From a virus, in IMG/VR virus record IMGVR_UViG_3300025132_000206, positions 1-29,133 of that record: DNA of 29,133 bases. One strand, 5' to 3'. The first letter of the stretch is position 1. Every line of letters starts with the position of its first letter. Made by a program: the position numbers and the translations under genes. The notes under the pieces are model-generated. The model saw only the letters and a list, made by a program, of their open reading frames with translations, made no database searches and was not told where the DNA came from. Shown one piece after another: positions 2,644 through 29,133 of this stretch.

Positions 2644-3426
2644 TTGCCAGTTTCTTGCTCTTCGCAAGTTTTGACAGGCACTGACGGAAGCGTATGGTTT
2701 CAACCAGCGTCTACCGAATTTTGCCTGAAAGACTACACTGACTTTCCCGCTGGAACCTCAATCACGGTTCCATCTGATCACGATTTTCGTGTCAACGACC
2801 CTGTTAAGTTCACTGCCCAAGGCACTGGACATATAGACGCAAACCTAACAGCAGGAACGACTTATTACGTTGTTGCTAAAGCTGCGACAACTATTGATGT
2901 ATCCGCATCAGCCGGTGGAACTGCTATTACCCTCGCTGGTGATGGCGGTACTGGTAGTGCTGACTCATCTAATACCGCTGTTAATCACATCAAGATTGAC
3001 TATGCGGAATTTGCTGCTGTTTGTCAGGTCAAGTCATTTACTCTCGATTTATCTCGCGAGGAAATTGACACAACTGTTCTACCCTGCACAGTTAACACCA
3101 CAGGTTCACTCGCTTCATTTAGAACAATGCAAGCCGGGTTTGCTTCGGGGTCTGGATCAATGGAAGTCCAGTTCACAGACGATCAAACCAACCTCGCTAA
3201 CCGTTTACTCGGTAATAGCATGAGGAAGAATCAGGATGGAGCCTCAGTTCGTCTATTTATCAACACTGTTGGTACGACAGCTTCACCAGATTTGAGTGAC
3301 AGCCTTTACATTGAAGCACCAATCTCAATTATGGGATTTAGTTTGAATGTATCCCCAGAGGATGTCATTGTCGGTTCGTTAACATTTAGCCTATCTGGAC
3401 AGCCAACTCACCTATTAGGCAACTAA
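2644..3426 (+). CDS. Major tail (tube) protein with an inserted surface domain
   Basis: The only usable start is TTG at 2644; the frame is closed by a TAG at 2629. The product has 260 residues. The tube-like parts are the short N-terminal stretch and the C-terminal half, including SFTLDLSREEIDTTVL (about residues 131-146) and GSGSMEVQFTDDQ, a pattern typical of tail tube proteins. Between about residues 33 and 107 lies an extra segment with NDPVKFTAQGTG and LTAGTTYYVVAKA. This resembles a small beta domain widespread in phage virion proteins ('GD.V.F...G...P..L..GT.YYVV'), probably displayed on the tail surface. A terminator follows the gene. The tube role is well supported; the insert's function is unknown. 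Confidence 0.8.
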   Translation: MPVSCSSQVLTGTDGSVWFQPASTEFCLKDYTDFPAGTSITVPSDHDFRVNDPVKFTAQGTGHIDANLTAGTTYYVVAKAATTIDVSASAGGTAITLAGDGGTGSADSSNTAVNHIKIDYAEFAAVCQVKSFTLDLSREEIDTTVLPCTVNTTGSLASFRTMQAGFASGSGSMEVQFTDDQTNLANRLLGNSMRKNQDGASVRLFINTVGTTASPDLSDSLYIEAPISIMGFSLNVSPEDVIVGSLTFSLSGQPTHLLGN

Positions 3427-3509: not shown

Positions 3510-3881
3510 ATGGCATTAAGCCTTATCGATGAGCTAAAGAAGGCAGCGAACCTCAAGCCCACGAAGCGCACAGTTGTCTTAACGAACGGAAAAGAAGTCG
3601 AATTTTACTGCGCTCCCCTCACGATGGCTGAGCGTGAAAAAGCCCAAGCGCAAGCTAAGAATCCTGACGACACAAATACTCTCGCTCTCCAATTGTTAGT
3701 CAATAAAGCTCAAAGCAAGACCGGTGAGCGTATGTTTAACGCCAGTCATATCGCGGAGTTAAAGCACTTTTGTAAAGAGCAGGATGTTCAAGCCTTAATG
3801 CTTGCCGTAATTAGTGATGCGGAGGCAGAGGAAGAACCCACCGATATGAAAAGAACTAGAAAAGCAACTACGGAAGGATAA
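3510..3881 (+). CDS. Tail assembly chaperone, G-like
   Basis: The product has 123 residues. It opens SLIDELKKAANLKPTKR and continues VVLTNGKEVEFYCAPLTMAERE, a common pattern in short tail assembly chaperones (a small N-terminal beta domain with 'V.L..G..V....P.T..E'). It ends in a charged tail. Position between the major tail protein and the tape measure is diagnostic for a lambda G/T-type chaperone pair, which coats the tape measure during tail assembly. The gene's 3' end overlaps an open +1 frame (3850-4041) carrying the T-like part, so a fraction may be made as a longer fusion. Confidence 0.75.
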   Translation: MALSLIDELKKAANLKPTKRTVVLTNGKEVEFYCAPLTMAEREKAQAQAKNPDDTNTLALQLLVNKAQSKTGERMFNASHIAELKHFCKEQDVQALMLAVISDAEAEEEPTDMKRTRKATTEG

Positions 3882-3885
3882 TTTA

Positions 3886-4041
3886 ATGATGCTGTCCTTC
3901 GGAGTCGCGAAGGAATTAGGCATGACTCTCCAACAGCTCTACCAAAACATCACTCTCCAAGAGCTGTTAGCGTGGTCTGCGTACTTTTCAATCATCAACC
4001 AAGAGCAGGAAGATGCTATGAAAAAGGCAAGACGACGCTAA
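3886..4041 (+). CDS. T-like second part of the tail assembly chaperone (51 aa, second frame)
   Basis: From the first ATG (a second follows at 3889) the product is 51 residues: a short lead, then KELGMTLQQLYQ, LQELLAWSAYFSI and a basic end. The pattern 'LG....EL...T..E...W.AYF.I' is characteristic of the downstream, frameshift-expressed part of phage tail chaperones (lambda T, and equivalents elsewhere). Its frame is +1 relative to the G-like gene and is open back to 3850, so expression by frameshift within 3850-3881 is possible. Independent initiation at the ATG four bases after the TAA is the alternative. The identification is good; the mode of expression is not settled. Confidence 0.7.
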   Translation: MMLSFGVAKELGMTLQQLYQNITLQELLAWSAYFSIINQEQEDAMKKARRR

Positions 4042-4072: not shown

Positions 4073-7000
4073 TTGGCAATTTACGCAGCCGATATTCAGA
4101 TCAATGTAAAAAATAAAGGCGAACTTCGTACCCTCGAAAGTCGCTTCAAGAAGATTGAGAAGGCAGCGGTCAGTTTAAATCAAACACTTAAAGGTCTTGG
4201 TCGTCGCAACGCAATAAAGGTAGATACTCGCGCTGCAATGTCAGCGATCAGCGCACTCGAATCCCGCATTCGTGGATTAAACCGGTCTGTAAATATCGAC
4301 GCACGTACTAGAGAAAGTCGAAGTGGCGGCGGTTCTGGAGGTGCAGGTCTTCCACTAGCTGCCGCTGCCTTTAGTGGCGGTATGGGTAGACGGGGAATGG
4401 ATTCGTTTGAGCGAATTACTAAGAAGCAGATGGACTATGTAGATCAACGCATAGCTCAAATAGAACAAAAGTTTGATACTCGCGCCTCCAGTGCAACAAA
4501 TCCTGTTGCAGCAAAGATGGCAAAGTTAAAAGCTGAAAGATCTATTTTAGGTAACGAAGCTAGAGCAATACAAAATGATTTCCGGACTAAATTAAAACAA
4601 CAGTCTTTTAGACAGCTAAACCGAGATATTGCGGCAAGCGAAGGACGTTATCAAGATTTATTAGCATCACCACCACCAAAGCCAAGAAGTAAATTTGAGG
4701 GACTTACAAGGCAAACAAGAAAAGCTTGGGTTGATGAGTTACGTGCAGAGAGGGGTTTTGGTAACAAATTAAGAGCACAGATTCCTGATGCTTTTGAAGC
4801 GGGGGCAGGTCCAACTAGGCAGATCGAAGATAAATTAGGAAAGATAAATGAATTAGCAAGAGAACAGGCAAGCCTTAAAAAAGTAGTAGAAGGTGAAGAT
4901 CAAGTTACCGAATCAAGAGTTAAAGGGAATGCTGTCAGAAAAAAGGTAAGAACACTCGAAGACAAGATTGAACAATCCCAAGTCAATGTTGCGAGAACTC
5001 AAGCTAGAGGACAGAAGATAAAGGAAGATTTAACAGCAGCCACGCAGAAGCAAGCCGAAGCTCAGAAGAAGTTCAATACAATGCAAAAACAATTCAATAC
5101 AAGACAGTCAAAACAAAGGACAGCACTTGACTTAGAGAAGCAACTCGCTACGGCAACAGAGGCTAGAGCTAAAGCAAATGCAGAAGTTACTAAATGGCAG
5201 AAAGCACAACAGAAACAGGTTGATCGTTACGGTCCAAATAATATTCGTCGGGATTTTTCAAAACCCGGAGGGGCAATAGAAAAGAGTATTAATAAATTAA
5301 TGGAGGCAGATAAGAAGCTACTGGAAGTCAAAGACAAGATGAAGAATACGGGTAAGGCAGCGGATTGGTCTCAACCTCTAGCAAATTCTAAAAAAGCTCT
5401 AAGTGAGGCTAAATCTGAAACTGCCGCTATAAATAAATTGCTAGACGCGAGTAACAAGCGTTTAGCACAAGGAAATCAAATATTAGATAGAAGGACAGGT
5501 ATTGAAGCGCGTCAAAAAATGATGGGCGCAGCGGGTAGAGGTGCAGCCGCCTCCGCTGCACTGATTCCGGGTGTCGCTCCTCTAGCTGTTGGTGGTTTTG
5601 CGGGTGCAGCAAATGGCGGTGGACTAGCGGGCGGTGCTGTTGGTATTGCGGTAGCGGCAGTAGTCCAAGGTACTGTTGCTCTTGGTAATTTCGTTAGAGA
5701 AGCAACAGTCGCTTCTTCAGAGATGAAGAAAATGGAGCTAGCTTTAACTGGTGTTGTTTCAAGTAATGTGGATTACAATAAGTCATTAAAAGCTGTAGAA
5801 GATATATCAAAAAGTTTAAAAATTCCTCAGAGTAATGTTATAAAAAGTTTTACAAGATTGCAGGCTTCAGCATCAGCGAGTGGGTTTGAAGTTGAGGACG
5901 TAAGTAAAATGATGTCAGGTTTCTCAAAGGCTTTGATAGCAACGGAAGGGGACGCTAAAAATTTCAACGGAGTTATGCTAGCCCTTGGACAGGTCATGGG
6001 TAAGGGAAAAGCGGCTGCGGAAGAATTGAGGGGTCAAATCGGTGAAAGATTGAGTGTAGTTATCCCCGAATTAGCAACATCAATGGGAGTGACAACTAGA
6101 GAGTTGGATAAGATGTTTGAACAAGGAAAAGTAACGGTACAAAATATAGTTGACTTAGGTGATCATTTAGATAAAAAGTACGGACAATCAGCAGCCAATA
6201 TTATAAAGAGTACGATGAATGCGGGAGAGAGATTGAAGTTTAGTATGGATCAATTGAAGTTAACATTAGGTCCAATTTTCATAGAAATAGGAGGCTTTTT
6301 CCAGAATTTAGCGACGACAATAATCGAGTCATTAACACCTGCAATAGCAAAGATAGCGGAATTAATGGGAGTAACCCGTGAAGGCGCAGCTATTAAGTTA
6401 GCTTCTTTGGGTGCTACAGAGATACAGCAAAGGGACGCTGCTAATGACGTATTCAAAAAGAGTTGGATAGATAAAGACCGCTTAAAGGAAGCGTCGATGA
6501 GAGAGGACGGTATGGAGTGGTTAAGAAAACATCAACAAAGCCGAGGTCAACGAAGGTTAGGTATCAGTCCAGCTGATTTAGCAGCTATTCGAGCCTTATT
6601 AAAGACGCAGGAGAAGATGAAAAAATTTGAGGCAATAGTTAAACCTGAAACTTTTGGAGTCGATGGTAAAAAGACAGATGGGCAGGGCATAAGTAAAGAG
6701 GAGGCAACAAGACTTGCAAACTTTGAGAAATTCAAGAAAAACATGCAGATAGAGAGAGACTTTTTAAGAGACAGAATGGAGCAGGGAACTAAGTATGCAG
6801 AGTTTGAAAGGGAAGTTGCGTTGATGATTATTGCCCACGGTGCAGATAAAGAGCAGGCTATTAGAGATGAATTAAAAGCAAAACAGGAATTAGAAGACCA
6901 GTTAAAGAGCGAAGTAGTCACCAGAGGAAAGATCAATGACATGATTGAAGAGAACGATCAGAAATTAAAAGATCTAGTCAATCCATTAAATCAAGTACAA

Positions 7001-7642
7001 GCTGCATCAGACGCAATAGGTTCCGCTTTTGCTGATTCAGTCAGAGATATTGTTTCGGGTACTAAGACGATTGGTGATGCAGTAAGAGATATGTTGCAGC
7101 GAATTGCCGATCATTTCCTTGATGCTGCTGCTGAGATTATGGCTCAACAAGTATCAAACATGTTATTTAAGACAATTGCTAGCGCAATAGGGGGCGGCTT
7201 AAGCAGTCCTGCACCAAATATTCAAACCAATGCCCCCGGAGTTCAGGGCACAATTCACACAGGGATGTGGACTGCTAGTTCAGGAGGATATACAGATAGA
7301 CCTACTAAAACACTTCTTGGAGAAGGCGGTGAAGGGGAATATGTCATCAAAGAGTCTCAGATGGCTGGTGCAATGTCTCGTTGGTCTCAGGGAAATAGAG
7401 GTAAAGCAGTTATCCACGGTAGCGATGGTGGTGTAGGTAGTCATCAAGCCGGTGGTTCATCTGAGGTTGTTGTTAATTACACCGGACCTTCACTTATTTT
7501 CAACGAGCAAGAATATGTTCCTAAGTCTGCGGTTCCTGAGATTATCAATACAGCAGCTCGACGCGGTTCAGAAGCGGGTCAGAGTAAAGTCCTTAGTCAA
7601 CTTAAAAACTCTCGTAGTCAACGCTCGAAATTAGGATTATGA
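4073..7642 (+). CDS. Tail tape measure protein (1189 aa)
   Basis: Start is TTG. The protein sets tail length and is ejected with the DNA. About residues 1-60 form a helical region with IQINVKNKGELRTLE, a common tape-measure opening. Residues about 150-480 are very rich in Lys, Gln, Glu and Ala, as in a long coiled coil. About residues 489-540 are a hydrophobic Gly/Ala stretch that could insert in a membrane. The segment from about 554, with LGQVMGKGKAAAEELRGQIGER (broken here for length: LGQVMGKGKAAA then EELRGQIGER) at about 638-661, matches the conserved tape-measure domain TIGR02675. Near residue 1083, LLGEGGEGEYVI matches the usual C-terminal 'GE.G.E.V' motif. The ATG of the next gene overlaps its stop. 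Confidence 0.92.
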   Translation: MAIYAADIQINVKNKGELRTLESRFKKIEKAAVSLNQTLKGLGRRNAIKVDTRAAMSAISALESRIRGLNRSVNIDARTRESRSGGGSGGAGLPLAAAAFSGGMGRRGMDSFERITKKQMDYVDQRIAQIEQKFDTRASSATNPVAAKMAKLKAERSILGNEARAIQNDFRTKLKQQSFRQLNRDIAASEGRYQDLLASPPPKPRSKFEGLTRQTRKAWVDELRAERGFGNKLRAQIPDAFEAGAGPTRQIEDKLGKINELAREQASLKKVVEGEDQVTESRVKGNAVRKKVRTLEDKIEQSQVNVARTQARGQKIKEDLTAATQKQAEAQKKFNTMQKQFNTRQSKQRTALDLEKQLATATEARAKANAEVTKWQKAQQKQVDRYGPNNIRRDFSKPGGAIEKSINKLMEADKKLLEVKDKMKNTGKAADWSQPLANSKKALSEAKSETAAINKLLDASNKRLAQGNQILDRRTGIEARQKMMGAAGRGAAASAALIPGVAPLAVGGFAGAANGGGLAGGAVGIAVAAVVQGTVALGNFVREATVASSEMKKMELALTGVVSSNVDYNKSLKAVEDISKSLKIPQSNVIKSFTRLQASASASGFEVEDVSKMMSGFSKALIATEGDAKNFNGVMLALGQVMGKGKAAAEELRGQIGERLSVVIPELATSMGVTTRELDKMFEQGKVTVQNIVDLGDHLDKKYGQSAANIIKSTMNAGERLKFSMDQLKLTLGPIFIEIGGFFQNLATTIIESLTPAIAKIAELMGVTREGAAIKLASLGATEIQQRDAANDVFKKSWIDKDRLKEASMREDGMEWLRKHQQSRGQRRLGISPADLAAIRALLKTQEKMKKFEAIVKPETFGVDGKKTDGQGISKEEATRLANFEKFKKNMQIERDFLRDRMEQGTKYAEFEREVALMIIAHGADKEQAIRDELKAKQELEDQLKSEVVTRGKINDMIEENDQKLKDLVNPLNQVQAASDAIGSAFADSVRDIVSGTKTIGDAVRDMLQRIADHFLDAAAEIMAQQVSNMLFKTIASAIGGGLSSPAPNIQTNAPGVQGTIHTGMWTASSGGYTDRPTKTLLGEGGEGEYVIKESQMAGAMSRWSQGNRGKAVIHGSDGGVGSHQAGGSSEVVVNYTGPSLIFNEQEYVPKSAVPEIINTAARRGSEAGQSKVLSQLKNSRSQRSKLGL

Positions 7643-12765: not shown

Positions 12766-13233
12766 ATGGCTAGTTTCTACTCAGGACAAGACGGAAAACT
12801 CTTCGTTGATACTAATGATACAGAAAGCGCAAAGGTAAGATCATGGTCCTTTACAGCTAGTCAAGCCGTATTAGAAACAGTTTCTCTAGGTGATACAGAT
12901 AGAACTTTAATTCCAGGCTTAAGAAGTTTAACGGGAAGTTGCAGTATCTATTACTATCAGACCTCGCCGGGTTCAGGTACTCCTACCGGAGGAGTCTCCG
13001 ATTTTGTTACTAAGTTTATAAAGGATGGAGGTAATGCCGGTGGCGACGGTGTAAATGCTAAAAGCGAATCAATAAAGTTAAAACTAGCGATTGATGATGG
13101 AACCAGTGCTATGCGTTACATCGTTTTCTATGCCTACATCACAAGTTTGGCAATGACAAATGCTGTTGGACAAGTTGTATCTGCTGATATTTCTTTTGAA
13201 GGTCATGGAGCACCAACAGGGATTAAGTTATAG
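12766..13233 (+). CDS. Tail tube-like protein (155 aa)
   Basis: The protein has a tube-like layout: YSGQDGKLFVD, then AKVRSWSFTASQAVLETVSLGD and GLRSLTGSCSIYYYQ (residues about 25-66), ending with ISFEGHGAPTGI. The phrase 'W......LE.T.LGD.....PG..S..GS' is typical of TP901-1/lambda V-type tail tube subunits. A tube-like gene this far downstream of the main tail protein, and after J, is not the usual lambda order. It could form part of the tip or a fibre hub rather than the shaft. The next gene follows without a gap (TAG then ATG). Confidence 0.65.
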   Translation: MASFYSGQDGKLFVDTNDTESAKVRSWSFTASQAVLETVSLGDTDRTLIPGLRSLTGSCSIYYYQTSPGSGTPTGGVSDFVTKFIKDGGNAGGDGVNAKSESIKLKLAIDDGTSAMRYIVFYAYITSLAMTNAVGQVVSADISFEGHGAPTGIKL

Positions 13234-16333: not shown

Positions 16334-19306
16334 ATGGCTATCAAGATCACTCTTAAGAACAGTGTCGTTCAAGATTCTGTTCCTACTACTACGCACTTAC
16401 CAGCAGTAGGGGAACTAGCGGTAAACGCGAATATCAATAGTATTGGCGGCTACATGCGAGCCAGTGATGACACTATTGTAAAAATATTTGGCCCTGGATC
16501 AGTTACGACACCGGCAGCCTCAACAACTGCTGCAGGTATCGCTGAATTAGCGACCAGCTCAGAGACAACGACAGGAACAGATACAACCAGAGCTGTAACA
16601 CCAGCGGGGTTAAAAGCTGTTACTGACGCAGAGAGAACGACAAGTAATAGCTCATATATTGGTGCGTCTGGTGGAACATTGACAGGGGCATTAACAATGC
16701 CTAATGGGTCAAATTCTGCGCCAAGTGTGAACTTCGGAGATGCAGATTCAGGTATATTTGGCGGGACAAATACCGTTAGTTTAGCGGCTGGAGGAACAAC
16801 AAGGTTAACTGCTGATACTGGTATAAGTGTTGTTGGTACGTTAGCGGTAACAGGAGCAATAACCTCAACAGCCGATTTAACGATAGCTGATAAAGTTATT
16901 CATTCTGGGGATACTGATACAGCAATAAGATTCCCTGCTGCTGATACGATTTCAGCAGAATCTGGAGGTAGCGAAGCTCTAAGAATAGATAGCTCACAGA
17001 GACTACTTGTAGGACATACAACCTCAATACCTGTAGGAGGATCAGACCCTCGTTTAGTACAAATCAATGCTGTTGACTCTGGTGCTGGTGTTGCGATTTC
17101 AAGGACATCTGCTGATACAACTGCGCCTTATATTTCTTTAGGCAAAGCAAGAGGTTCGTCTATTGGCGATGTTACAGCCGTACAAGAAAATGATGTATTA
17201 GGTACTATTCAATTTGCTGGTGCTGATGGTACAGATCTTCAAACTAAAGCAGCATTAATTAAGGCCGTTGTTGATGGTACTGTTGCTTCTGATGACATCC
17301 CTGGCAGATTAGAGTTCTATACCTTTAACGCAGCGACAGATACCTTAACTGAGCAATTTGAAATCAAGAATGATGGTACTCATACGATTCAAGCTGGAAC
17401 GTTAGCGATCAATGGGGCTGCTGAGACTTTGCTCCACTTGACCTCAAGTGATGCAGGTTCTGGTATTAAGTTGACAGATAACACCTCATATTCTGAGATC
17501 GTAAATAACAACAGTAGTTTAAATATCACTTATGACGGGGGAGCTAGTGGAGGTGGAGGGCACCTCGATTTAATATCAGGAACTGAGACTGTTGCAAGGT
17601 TTACCGCAGCTTGGGGTCATCTAAGGATTGGTAATTCTTCTCTTTGGCCTGCAGGTACTGAGCCTATTTATGTAACGACGTCCAATAGTTCAGGACAGGG
17701 ACTTGTTATTGATGGGAGTGACTACAACAGAAATGTTCGTATAAAGGGTGAGAGTGACATTAGTGGCTCAAATAATTCGGTCTTTTATATTGAGGCAGAG
17801 AACGACGGTAATACAATTGGAAGAATTCAGTTTAAGACTGGTGCTGATAGTTTTCAAAAAGAAGGAAGACTTCTCTTAGAAACATCTGGGGGTAATGCTG
17901 GAGCCGAAACAAGAGTACAAATTGAACCTAATGGGAATGTAGGTATAGGAACGACCTTTGAAGATGGTGATGGAACGACAGTTCCAACGTCTACATTACA
18001 TGTTTCAAGTGCTGAAAGTATAGTAAGAATCGAGTCTACAACTGCGGGAAATGGGTCATTTCTTGATATAAAATCACCTGCTGATGGATTATCTAAAATA
18101 CGTTTTGCTGATACGGATGACGATAATGTTGGGATGATTAGTTATGAACATAGTACTAATAGTATGTTATTTAATATTAACGATGCGACAAAGTTTAGGT
18201 TTGATTCTGGCGGTAAATTCTTATGGAATACTGCTACTTCTGTAGATACAAATAATAGCCCGATTCAGCTAGTAGATCATGATGCTGCGTCTGGTATATA
18301 CATGAAACATACTGGAAATAGACGTTCTCTTATTACTGCTGATTCAGCTAGAGATTCAGCAAACGATCAGATCCTTGGTCTTGTTTCAAGGTGGAATGGA
18401 ACGGGAGTTGCTGCAATGTATTTCCTTACTGGTGATGATGCTACGAATGAAGATAATGGTTCAATTGAACTTCATGTAGCAAGTAATAACACAGACGGAC
18501 TTGTAAAAAGATTTGAGATCAATGAAAATGGTCGCACTCATCTGATGAACGGAGGGGGTGGGGAACTATTAAGACTTACTCCTCAAAATGCTCAGTCTGA
18601 TCCATCGATAAATATCAGATCAAGTTGTAATGGTGGATGTGGAAACAGACTGAGGTTTGAAGATACAGACACTTCATGCGGAAATAATCAAAACTTCGGT
18701 CATATTGAGTGGTACTCACATGATGTCAAACCCACTGGTGGTGCTGATGTTGACGGGCCAGGTGTAAAGTGTCGAATCCTTGGTAGAGCTGACAACGCAG
18801 CCGCCGAGGGAGAGTTCTTATTTCAATTACATAAGGATGGAATAGACACCGCTATCTCTACCGTTTTTAAGATGAACCATGAGGGTGAGATAGGGGCTCC
18901 TGGTCTTGGTACTGGTTCAGGTACAGATGTGGTTATCTCCTCGACGGGTTGGTTAGCTAAAAAGACATCATCTAGGCGTTACAAGAAAAATATTAAAACG
19001 ATTGAGGATTCAGTAGCCGATAAGATTTTAAATTGCAATCCTGTTTGGTTCCAAAGAAATGAAGAGGATGATACATCTTTAGGACATTATGGTTTTATTG
19101 CAGAGGAGATCCATGAAATAGACCCTGCCTTTGTTATCTATGAAGATAAAAGGAAAACATTAGACAGTGAAGGAGATTATGTTTATGAAGATCTACCTGA
19201 GCAAGATTGGTTGCCTGATTCTGTAAAATATACAGATTTCATTCCCCTTCTTGTCAATCTTATTAAGAGACAAGATGCAAGAATCACAGCCTTAGAAGCT
19301 AAATAG
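16334..19306 (+). CDS. Long tail fibre with S74 intramolecular chaperone (990 aa)
   Basis: The N-terminus carries VGELAVNANINS, a virion-anchor motif related to that of later short fibres. AGIAELATSSETTTGTDTTR (about residues 66-85) is a phage fibre repeat. The middle is a long beta-rich shaft with DADSGIFGGTNTVSLAAGG and VQIEPNGNVGIGT. The end starts with SRRYKKNIKTIEDS (about residue 879) and includes LGHYGFIAEEI, typical of the peptidase S74 chaperone domain. That domain assembles the trimer and then cuts itself off, at the Ser of the SRRYK motif by family precedent. The role is host receptor binding. The final residues LIKRQDARITALEAK form the usual coiled-coil end. Confidence 0.92.
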   Translation: MAIKITLKNSVVQDSVPTTTHLPAVGELAVNANINSIGGYMRASDDTIVKIFGPGSVTTPAASTTAAGIAELATSSETTTGTDTTRAVTPAGLKAVTDAERTTSNSSYIGASGGTLTGALTMPNGSNSAPSVNFGDADSGIFGGTNTVSLAAGGTTRLTADTGISVVGTLAVTGAITSTADLTIADKVIHSGDTDTAIRFPAADTISAESGGSEALRIDSSQRLLVGHTTSIPVGGSDPRLVQINAVDSGAGVAISRTSADTTAPYISLGKARGSSIGDVTAVQENDVLGTIQFAGADGTDLQTKAALIKAVVDGTVASDDIPGRLEFYTFNAATDTLTEQFEIKNDGTHTIQAGTLAINGAAETLLHLTSSDAGSGIKLTDNTSYSEIVNNNSSLNITYDGGASGGGGHLDLISGTETVARFTAAWGHLRIGNSSLWPAGTEPIYVTTSNSSGQGLVIDGSDYNRNVRIKGESDISGSNNSVFYIEAENDGNTIGRIQFKTGADSFQKEGRLLLETSGGNAGAETRVQIEPNGNVGIGTTFEDGDGTTVPTSTLHVSSAESIVRIESTTAGNGSFLDIKSPADGLSKIRFADTDDDNVGMISYEHSTNSMLFNINDATKFRFDSGGKFLWNTATSVDTNNSPIQLVDHDAASGIYMKHTGNRRSLITADSARDSANDQILGLVSRWNGTGVAAMYFLTGDDATNEDNGSIELHVASNNTDGLVKRFEINENGRTHLMNGGGGELLRLTPQNAQSDPSINIRSSCNGGCGNRLRFEDTDTSCGNNQNFGHIEWYSHDVKPTGGADVDGPGVKCRILGRADNAAAEGEFLFQLHKDGIDTAISTVFKMNHEGEIGAPGLGTGSGTDVVISSTGWLAKKTSSRRYKKNIKTIEDSVADKILNCNPVWFQRNEEDDTSLGHYGFIAEEIHEIDPAFVIYEDKRKTLDSEGDYVYEDLPEQDWLPDSVKYTDFIPLLVNLIKRQDARITALEAK

Positions 19307-28120: not shown

Positions 28121-29133
28121 ATGTCAAATACAGTTTTGCCCCAAATAGTCGGTTATGCGAGAGTCAGCACGTCTGCGGGGGAACAGATCTCTGCGCTAGA
28201 AACCCAGAAAAGCAGATTAAAAAGTGCGGGTGTTCAAAAGATATTTACTGATGTTGAAAGTGGCCGAAGTAATGACAGACAGGCTTTTAATGACTTACTT
28301 CAACTAATTGATAAAAGAGCAATTAAAGAAATCGTTGTTACTAGGTTTGATCGACTTGGAAGAGACGCGGCTTTTGTCGATGCTGCTCTAGTTTTAGCGT
28401 CAAAAAAGAGCGTCGTAATTAGAACAATTGATACAGGAGTTGTAGATACTCAATCACCAACCGGTTTCTTAATGTCTCGAATCTCAACCAGTCTTGCGGA
28501 GATGGAAAGCAAGATGTTGAGCATGAGAGTTAAAAAAGCTCTCGACCAGAGATGGAAAGATGGGAAGATACCACGAAGTAAAATTCCTTGGGGTTATCAC
28601 AGAGTTAGATATGGAGATAAGTATCGTCTAGAAATTCATCCAATCGAGGGGGAAAAGGCAAGAAAGTTCTTAGAAGCTTTAAAAGAAAACGGATATAGGT
28701 GTCATAGAACACTCAAGGAATTTGGTGATTTTCCGCTAGCTAGAGTATCTAGTGTTAAGAAATGGATCTATAACCCTGTATTGAGAGGAGGTATTGGTTT
28801 CGACAAAATAAATAATTTCCAGTACAAAAAAGTAATCTGGGATCAGCATGAACCTCTAATTAGGCATGAAGACTGGTTCGTAATCAAAAGGACTATGGAG
28901 TTTAATACAAAAGCATGGGGAGCAAGTGCAAAAGTGCAGCCAAAACTTCTTACCGGTTTAGTTATTTGTTCCAGGTGTAATAACCGCTTGGGCTATGTAT
29001 CCCGTAAAAAGGAGACACATGCTTACGCTTTACGTTGTAACTTTCTTAAGTGCGATGCTTATGCGAAAAGAGTAAACGCAAAAATGATCGTAGAGGCTAT
29101 TAATAAGGCTTTAACAAAACGATCAAAAGAATT
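28121..29133 (+). CDS. Large serine recombinase (integrase), 3' truncated by window edge
   Basis: From ATG 28121 the frame is open to the end (337 residues visible). VGYARVSTSAGEQISALETQ (residues 10-29) is the catalytic-domain opening; Ser16 is the nucleophile, with Arg14 near it. VTRFDRLGRD (about residues 73-82) and the helix with LAEMESKMLSMR follow. The recombinase domain (IPWGYHRV, RTLKEFG, WIYNPVLRGG) and a zinc ribbon with CSRC and a later RCNFLKC are present, as in large serine integrases. It cuts and rejoins attP and attB for integration. Zn-ribbon and domain order exclude a small resolvase. The rest of the C-terminal part lies outside the window. Confidence 0.92.
   Translation, partial: MSNTVLPQIVGYARVSTSAGEQISALETQKSRLKSAGVQKIFTDVESGRSNDRQAFNDLLQLIDKRAIKEIVVTRFDRLGRDAAFVDAALVLASKKSVVIRTIDTGVVDTQSPTGFLMSRISTSLAEMESKMLSMRVKKALDQRWKDGKIPRSKIPWGYHRVRYGDKYRLEIHPIEGEKARKFLEALKENGYRCHRTLKEFGDFPLARVSSVKKWIYNPVLRGGIGFDKINNFQYKKVIWDQHEPLIRHEDWFVIKRTMEFNTKAWGASAKVQPKLLTGLVICSRCNNRLGYVSRKKETHAYALRCNFLKCDAYAKRVNAKMIVEAINKALTKRSKE

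Follow-up and report, generated by a model that had tools for sequence, protein, structure and literature searches.

The locus described here raises the question of how a coding frame displaced by one base from the gene before it comes to be translated. In the window, which is the whole 29,133-nucleotide stretch of viral DNA that was analysed, a G-like gene (3510..3881, + strand) is followed by a T-like frame (3850..4041, +) that lies +1 to G, opens right after a TGA (3847-3849) and runs to the stop codon 4039-4041. This arrangement had been pointed out in a first-pass annotation of the sequence, and it is confirmed by direct reading of the open frames and by matches of the T peptide to PHROG 26456 (E 2e-9; a family without named function) and to the tail family PHROG 337 (E 4e-5). 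In the window and each of its relatives L001-L019, 20 sequences in all, G is followed by a T frame; in two of the 20 the contig end truncates the sequence. It appears that this phage, an uncultured tailed virus, shares with many aquatic relatives a way of making the long form of a tail-assembly helper protein in which ribosomes skip one base forward at the sequence AAAAG, where other related phages slip one base backward at the same codon.

Genomic context of the G/T pair

The G-like gene starts with ATG, ends with TAA at 3879-3881 and encodes 123 amino acids, which would correspond to the short form of a tail assembly chaperone; its product matches PHROG 20784 (E 5e-27), a family without named function. 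Just 5' of it lies a candidate major tail protein (2644..3426, +; a weak match to PHROG 1407, E 0.0025), and just 3' of T a clear tape measure protein (4073..7642, +; PHROG 2335, E 4e-34; Pfam TMP_3, E 4e-26), so that the pair occupies the usual position of tail assembly chaperone genes. The listed start of the tape measure frame at 4073 is a TTG, and the peptide LAIYAADIQ is found from there in many close relatives. A second major-tail-like protein is encoded at 12766-13233 (+), with E-values (PHROG 10528, 3e-7; PHROG 1407, 3e-6) better than those of the candidate at 2644-3426.

Relatives and the frame of T

Relatives were collected by seven scans of viral contigs and range from near identity to less than 30%. 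Four of the seven scans returned the best 80 of a longer list, so the counts describe the sample fetched and not the whole collection. The 298 records gave 237 distinct junctions once 55 duplicates, 5 records without T and 1 without G had been left out. T lies in the +1 frame in 135 of these, in the -1 frame in 102 and in the frame of G in none. Clustering at 85% identity yielded 78 representatives (45 +1, 33 -1) of 235 junctions, the 2 of 237 without an assigned slip site being omitted. A second set, drawn from the clades of AG-345-A17 and MED4-184, comprised 163 records, from which 32 duplicates and 2 records without T were removed. A search of a genome contig collection matched 82 stretches, none of which was confirmed as a relative. 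Named relatives are KBS-S-2A, S-2L, AG-345-A17, MED4-184, MED4-117, P-HS2 and S-H1. G is labelled 'hypothetical protein' in the records of KBS-S-2A, MED4-184, MED4-117 and S-H1, and among the named records viewed a separate gene is annotated over T only in S-H1; the result thus shows how the second chaperone product should be annotated.

An invariant proposed slip sequence

The slip site of each +1 junction was assigned to the earliest AAAA lying in frame within the open part of T; neither the GAY before it nor the G after it entered the search. All 135 distinct +1 junctions nevertheless share the cassette GAY-NNN-AAA-AG[C/A/T], present in the window as GAT ATG AAA AGA (3843..3854, +). The proposed slip site within it, AAAAG (3849..3853, +), shows no change at its five positions in 89 close pairs, and its AAAA is the only one in frame in the G part. 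Elsewhere in the loci of the 45 +1 representatives (stop-to-stop frames of at least 100 amino acids), 82 of 59,429 codons begin an in-frame AAAAG. The comparison of homologues that the first-pass annotation had recommended therefore does reveal a conserved slip sequence. That annotation rightly noted that the overlap holds no classical heptamer of the X_XXY_YYZ type, and it overlooked AAAAG after GAT ATG; its placing of the shift within 3850-3881 holds for entry into the new frame, but not for the slip site, since AAAA (3849-3852) begins one base earlier. For the window, -1 slippage of the classical kind was rejected, the T frame being the wrong one and the heptamer absent.

The distant clade of AG-345-A17 extends this picture, as all of its 60 distinct junctions are +1 with AAAAG (AG-345-A17 itself is common to the set of 135). 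In 46 of the 60 the overlap is only 5 nt (AAA AGY stop), so that the shift must fall within two codons, at the AAA AGY before the stop; 46 of the 60 also have no ATG, GTG or TTG in the first 25 codons of T. The +1 junctions of both sets together supply almost 200 different natural examples that share an unchanging core. A ban on A as the last base of the codon preceding AAA was considered and discarded: it holds in 135 of 135 junctions of the main set and fails in the AG-345-A17 clade, where this codon is TTA in at least 25 of 60. The G at the fifth position looks held as a nucleotide, because the residue after the slip lysine is restricted to A, V or E (codons starting with G) in the 45 +1 representatives and is N, R, I, K, A, E, V or S in the 33 -1 representatives.

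The -1 junctions carry sites of another kind. An X_XXY_YYZ heptamer is present within 72 nt of the stop in 100 of 102, as A AAA AAC (38), C CCA AAA (35), C CCA AAG (16), A AAA AAA (10) or G GGA AAG (1), and the two remaining junctions carry CCC AAG AAC. S-H1 is -1 with A AAA AAC. In the clade of MED4-184, all 69 distinct junctions are -1 with NNA AAG; MED4-184 (L299) and its relatives L381-L460 have NNA AAG GAA TCY TAA in place of the full heptamer, perhaps a single-tRNA -1 site of the A_AAG type.

Coding constraint across the junction

The phase of substitutions was followed across the junction in 132 of the 135 +1 sequences (3 lacked flank), which form 89 close pairs. Upstream of the slip site (-60 to -10), 104, 49 and 346 of 499 substitutions fall at G codon positions 1, 2 and 3, respectively, and downstream (30-59 nt) the figures become 177, 79 and 25 of 281, position 1 of G being the wobble position of T. 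The phase flips at the slip site, and T is under coding constraint from there on. The 64 pairs of the -1 set behave as their own frame predicts (97, 27 and 259 upstream; 3, 122 and 36 downstream). Within the +1 overlap, where 85 pairs provide 25 changes, 17 of the 25 are synonymous in T, 3 in G and 4 in the third frame.

The encoded peptides agree with this boundary. When eight G proteins are aligned, +1 and -1 members alike have the slip lysine in one invariant column, and the register of the fused peptide is shared by both types (DMK-ALKAELKKDN in +1 and DPK-ILSAELRKDN in -1 relatives, DMK-ELEKQLRKDN in the window).

Proposed mechanism

The locus very probably encodes a tail assembly chaperone of the lambda G/GT type, whose fusion form would arise by +1 slippage of peptidyl-tRNA-Lys from AAA 3849-3851 to AAA 3850-3852. 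Most ribosomes would produce the 123-residue G protein, while a fraction would shift when AAA 3849-3851 occupies the P site and AGA 3852-3854 the A site. Once peptidyl-tRNA-Lys had re-paired with AAA 3850-3852, decoding would continue with GAA (3853-3855), CTA and GAA into T, whose codons from 3853 on would supply the C-terminal part of a 176-residue GT fusion containing ...PTDMK-ELEKQLRKDN.... Re-pairing one base forward is perfect on the AAA_A at 3849-3852, and AAA_A is present in every junction of the main +1 set (135 of 135) and of the AG-345-A17 clade (60 of 60), which have one junction in common. If the roles described in lambda apply, the tape measure protein would be bound by G alone, and the less abundant GT fusion would bring in the tail tube protein.

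The signals that commonly assist such shifts have been considered as well. Codons AGC, AGA and AGT are used 18.9, 12.1 and 12.1 times per 1000 in these loci and are not rare by usage; since AGC is not rare, a hungry-codon model is without support. Slippage driven by the zero-frame stop was rejected, because the distance from the opening of T to the stop varies from 5 to 68 nt in the 135 +1 junctions; in the window AAA and the stop are 30 nt apart. Judged by the usual marks of the +1 frameshift class, the site has neither an A-site codon that would be slow by its usage nor an adjacent stop. Shine-Dalgarno-like strength upstream shows a modest excess (mean best -7.5 vs -5.3 in synonymous shuffles), which reaches a level of 0.05 or below in 6 of 45 +1 and 2 of 33 -1 representatives, and the acidic codons GAG and GAA account for much of this signal. 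Structure 3' of the site (8-90 nt) has a mean z of -2.94 in the -1 set and is weak in the +1 set (mean z -1.45, 14 of 45 below -2), and a stretch further downstream gives -0.45 and -0.29. In the window a hairpin is predicted at 3873..3900 (+; stem 3873-3880/3893-3900) that would cover a Shine-Dalgarno-like AGGA; it is weak (z -1.37), as 21 of 200 shuffles fold as well. Covariation was sought in 16 close sequences of the window group, whose consensus fold consists of other pairs, none of them changed on both sides.

Alternatives to a +1 ribosomal shift

The first-pass annotation had left the choice between recoding (+1 or -2) and reinitiation. The relatives support recoding and favour +1; -2 slippage and reinitiation are both much less likely. 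Slippage by -2 would enter the same frame with one added residue (DMK-R-ELEKQ), and the Shine-Dalgarno-like signal of the +1 set does peak about 11-17 nt upstream of AAA, a placement that in E. coli is usually tied to backward shifts. Phage Mu reaches the identical frame by -2, according to the available text of PMC5009743. Such a movement is nonetheless improbable here, because it would place an AGN-reading tRNA on AAA, or in the window tRNA-Lys on UGA, which on inspection pair poorly, whereas pairing after a +1 step is perfect; furthermore, the added residue would disturb the register that the +1 fusion shares with the -1 relatives. Slippage of RNA polymerase on AAAA with loss of one A would provide an mRNA for exactly the fusion that a +1 ribosomal shift yields. 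A run of four is short for this, known cases involving longer runs of A or T, and neither the invariant following G nor the upstream GAY would be expected, which makes it the most improbable of the readings considered. The sequences themselves show the relation of the two frames, their conservation, the invariant AAAAG and the constraint on T; the ribosome rather than RNA polymerase as the shifting agent, +1 rather than -2 as the step, the efficiency of the shift and the chaperone role are deduced.

Reinitiation or coupled initiation would instead produce a free T protein of 51 or 50 residues and no fusion. Both T-frame ATGs that had been reported at 3886 and 3889 (3886..3891, +) are indeed present, AGGA (3875..3878, +) lies 7 nt before the first, and the two ATGs are kept in 18 close relatives (L001-L018). 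Among the -1 representatives, an ATG precedes the T core in 23 of 33, in 10 with a Shine-Dalgarno-like element. However, the conserved T-frame peptide starts about 12 residues upstream of the ATG, also in relatives without an ATG there, which include L019, KBS-S-2A, S-2L and AG-345-A17, and the pattern of substitutions in the overlap is that of the T frame. AGGA itself falls within the codons of a conserved T-frame Lys-Asp, and KBS-S-2A has AAGGAT followed by AAT CTT CTG, with no ATG; in relatives the columns of both ATGs mostly hold other residues, Leu among them. The 45 +1 representatives divide into 3 with an ATG and a Shine-Dalgarno-like element (the window included), 10 with an ATG lacking such an element, 12 with only GTG or TTG, again lacking it, and 20 with no such codon before the T core. 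Reinitiation therefore cannot explain the expression of T throughout the family, and the two ATGs are very unlikely to replace the shift in the window, where a free T protein made besides the fusion is possible.

The fusion product as a probable tail assembly chaperone

The +1 fusion was compared with tail chaperones at the level of profiles and predicted structure. PHROG 344, 'tail assembly chaperone', is matched by relatives of G, at best with E 2e-6, and the window's own fusion, P0002, is absent from these matches. A read-through fusion, P0007, aligns across the junction with the profile of PHROG 14766 (224 positions; 34-158 to 41-161, E 2e-7), whose members, like D6PII1 below, may be uninterrupted frames or annotated frameshift products. 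Profile searches against the sequences of PDB chains gave 0 matches at E of 1 or below, and the NCBIfam search gave no useful match. The fusion model has a mean pLDDT of 77 and a pTM of 0.47, with blocks from residue 121 on at 84-92. It is matched best by D6PII1, an unnamed viral protein of 179 residues (170 columns, E 1e-10, TM 0.55, rmsd 10.3), and it also matches the tail assembly chaperone of RcRhea (E 1.6e-5, 169 columns, rmsd 10.6); its best PDB match, a weak one, is 2ob9, the HK97 tail assembly chaperone (E 0.005, probability 1.00, TM-score 0.35 on the query). The model has a helix at residues 113-122, whose codons lie 5' of the ATGs and which would be lost with a start at 3886. These similarities suggest a tail chaperone role for the G and GT products.

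Probable changes of direction within the family

The distribution of +1 and -1 junctions was placed on a tree of the 78 representatives built with the junction residues omitted. At least 4 of the 7 label changes that this tree requires are forced by well-supported branches. Removal of five long rows lowers the requirement to 5 changes (at least 3 forced), and the AU test then rejects monophyly of the +1 members (p 0.0015). Quick trees of the separate parts, based on few columns, give 10 changes with 2 forced for G and 4 changes with 1 forced for T, so that a single origin is still compatible with the T tree. The pair L246 (+1) and L269 (-1) has nearly identical G and distant T parts, the T part having likely been swapped in together with its frame by a recombination breakpoint at the frameshift site. 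Accordingly, some of the switches are likely due to recombination at the site rather than to local indels, a circumstance that may affect the tree test on the joined alignment.

On balance, AAA_AG[C/A/U] probably represents a distinct, stop-independent +1 class, and the direction of the shift probably flipped several times between +1 (AAA_AGN) and -1 (C_CCA_AAR, A_AAA_AAM) at the same codon. Under this reading, which is held with less assurance than the +1 slip itself, the repeated flips at one codon would mean that the fusion protein is kept by selection while the recoding mechanism is exchangeable. The matched +1 and -1 relatives provide a natural experiment on the direction of frameshifting.

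Comparison with known recoding systems

Tail chaperone shifts of -1, -2 or +1 occur in different tailed phages, -2 adding one residue (PMC5009743, available text). Lambda gpG/gpGT and the general -1 class, including KBS-S-2A and S-2L, resemble the window in the order major tail protein, G/T, tape measure protein and in the design of a short protein with an out-of-frame C-terminal extension reached by a shift near the end of G; they differ in using an X_XXY_YYZ heptamer or similar, where the window has AAA_AGA and a +1 frame. The T frame is +1 to G, as in the window, in halovirus HSTV-2 ('very likely +1') and in Mu, although Mu shifts by -2, unlike the step proposed here, and HSTV-2 is likened by frame only (same source). 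A P-site tRNA that moves one base forward, as proposed for the window, is described in the available parts of PMC5009743 and PMC10885494 for CCC_UGA of the Listeria phages PSA, A118 and A500 and for CUU_UGA of prfB; these sites adjoin a stop codon (that of PSA cps does not), whereas the window site lies 30 nt from one. The yeast sites Ty1 CUU_AGG_C, EST3 CUU_AGU_U and Ty3 GCG_AGU_U are internal +1 sites whose A-site codon begins with AG, as here, but they are eukaryotic and linked to a scarce A-site tRNA and weak P-site pairing (PMC5009743, in part), while AGC is common in these loci and re-pairing is cognate. Four identical bases, such as AAAA here, form the 'four' forward motif listed by PRFect as a +1 class, and the accessible part of that report (PMC10885494) describes neither the invariance of AAAAG nor a switching of direction.

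Frameshifted tail chaperones, +1 shifts included, are therefore already known, and what appears new from the sequences is the internal AAA_AGN site together with repeated changes of direction in one family. Neither this site nor switching within a family was found in the accessible parts of the open-licence literature (PMC5009743, PMC10885494, PMC3711429, PMC2784084, PMC12859696, PMC12846349); Xu et al. 2004 and Baranov et al. 2006 may hold related cases. Internal +1 sites have been called 'notoriously difficult to spot' (PMC5009743, available text), and the -1 shift of another chaperone family has been described as a conserved 'frozen accident' (PMC12846349, available text).

Other genes of the window

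Two further genes of the window deserve mention. The product of the frame at 16334-19306 (+), 990 residues long, carries at its C terminus an S74 'chaperone of endosialidase' domain, which is also a feature of self-cleaving tail fibres or spikes. The frame at 28121-29131 (+), which runs off the window, encodes a serine recombinase/integrase-like protein (Pfam Resolvase, E 3e-28; PHROG 95 integrase, E 1e-39), suggesting a temperate phage or an invertase.
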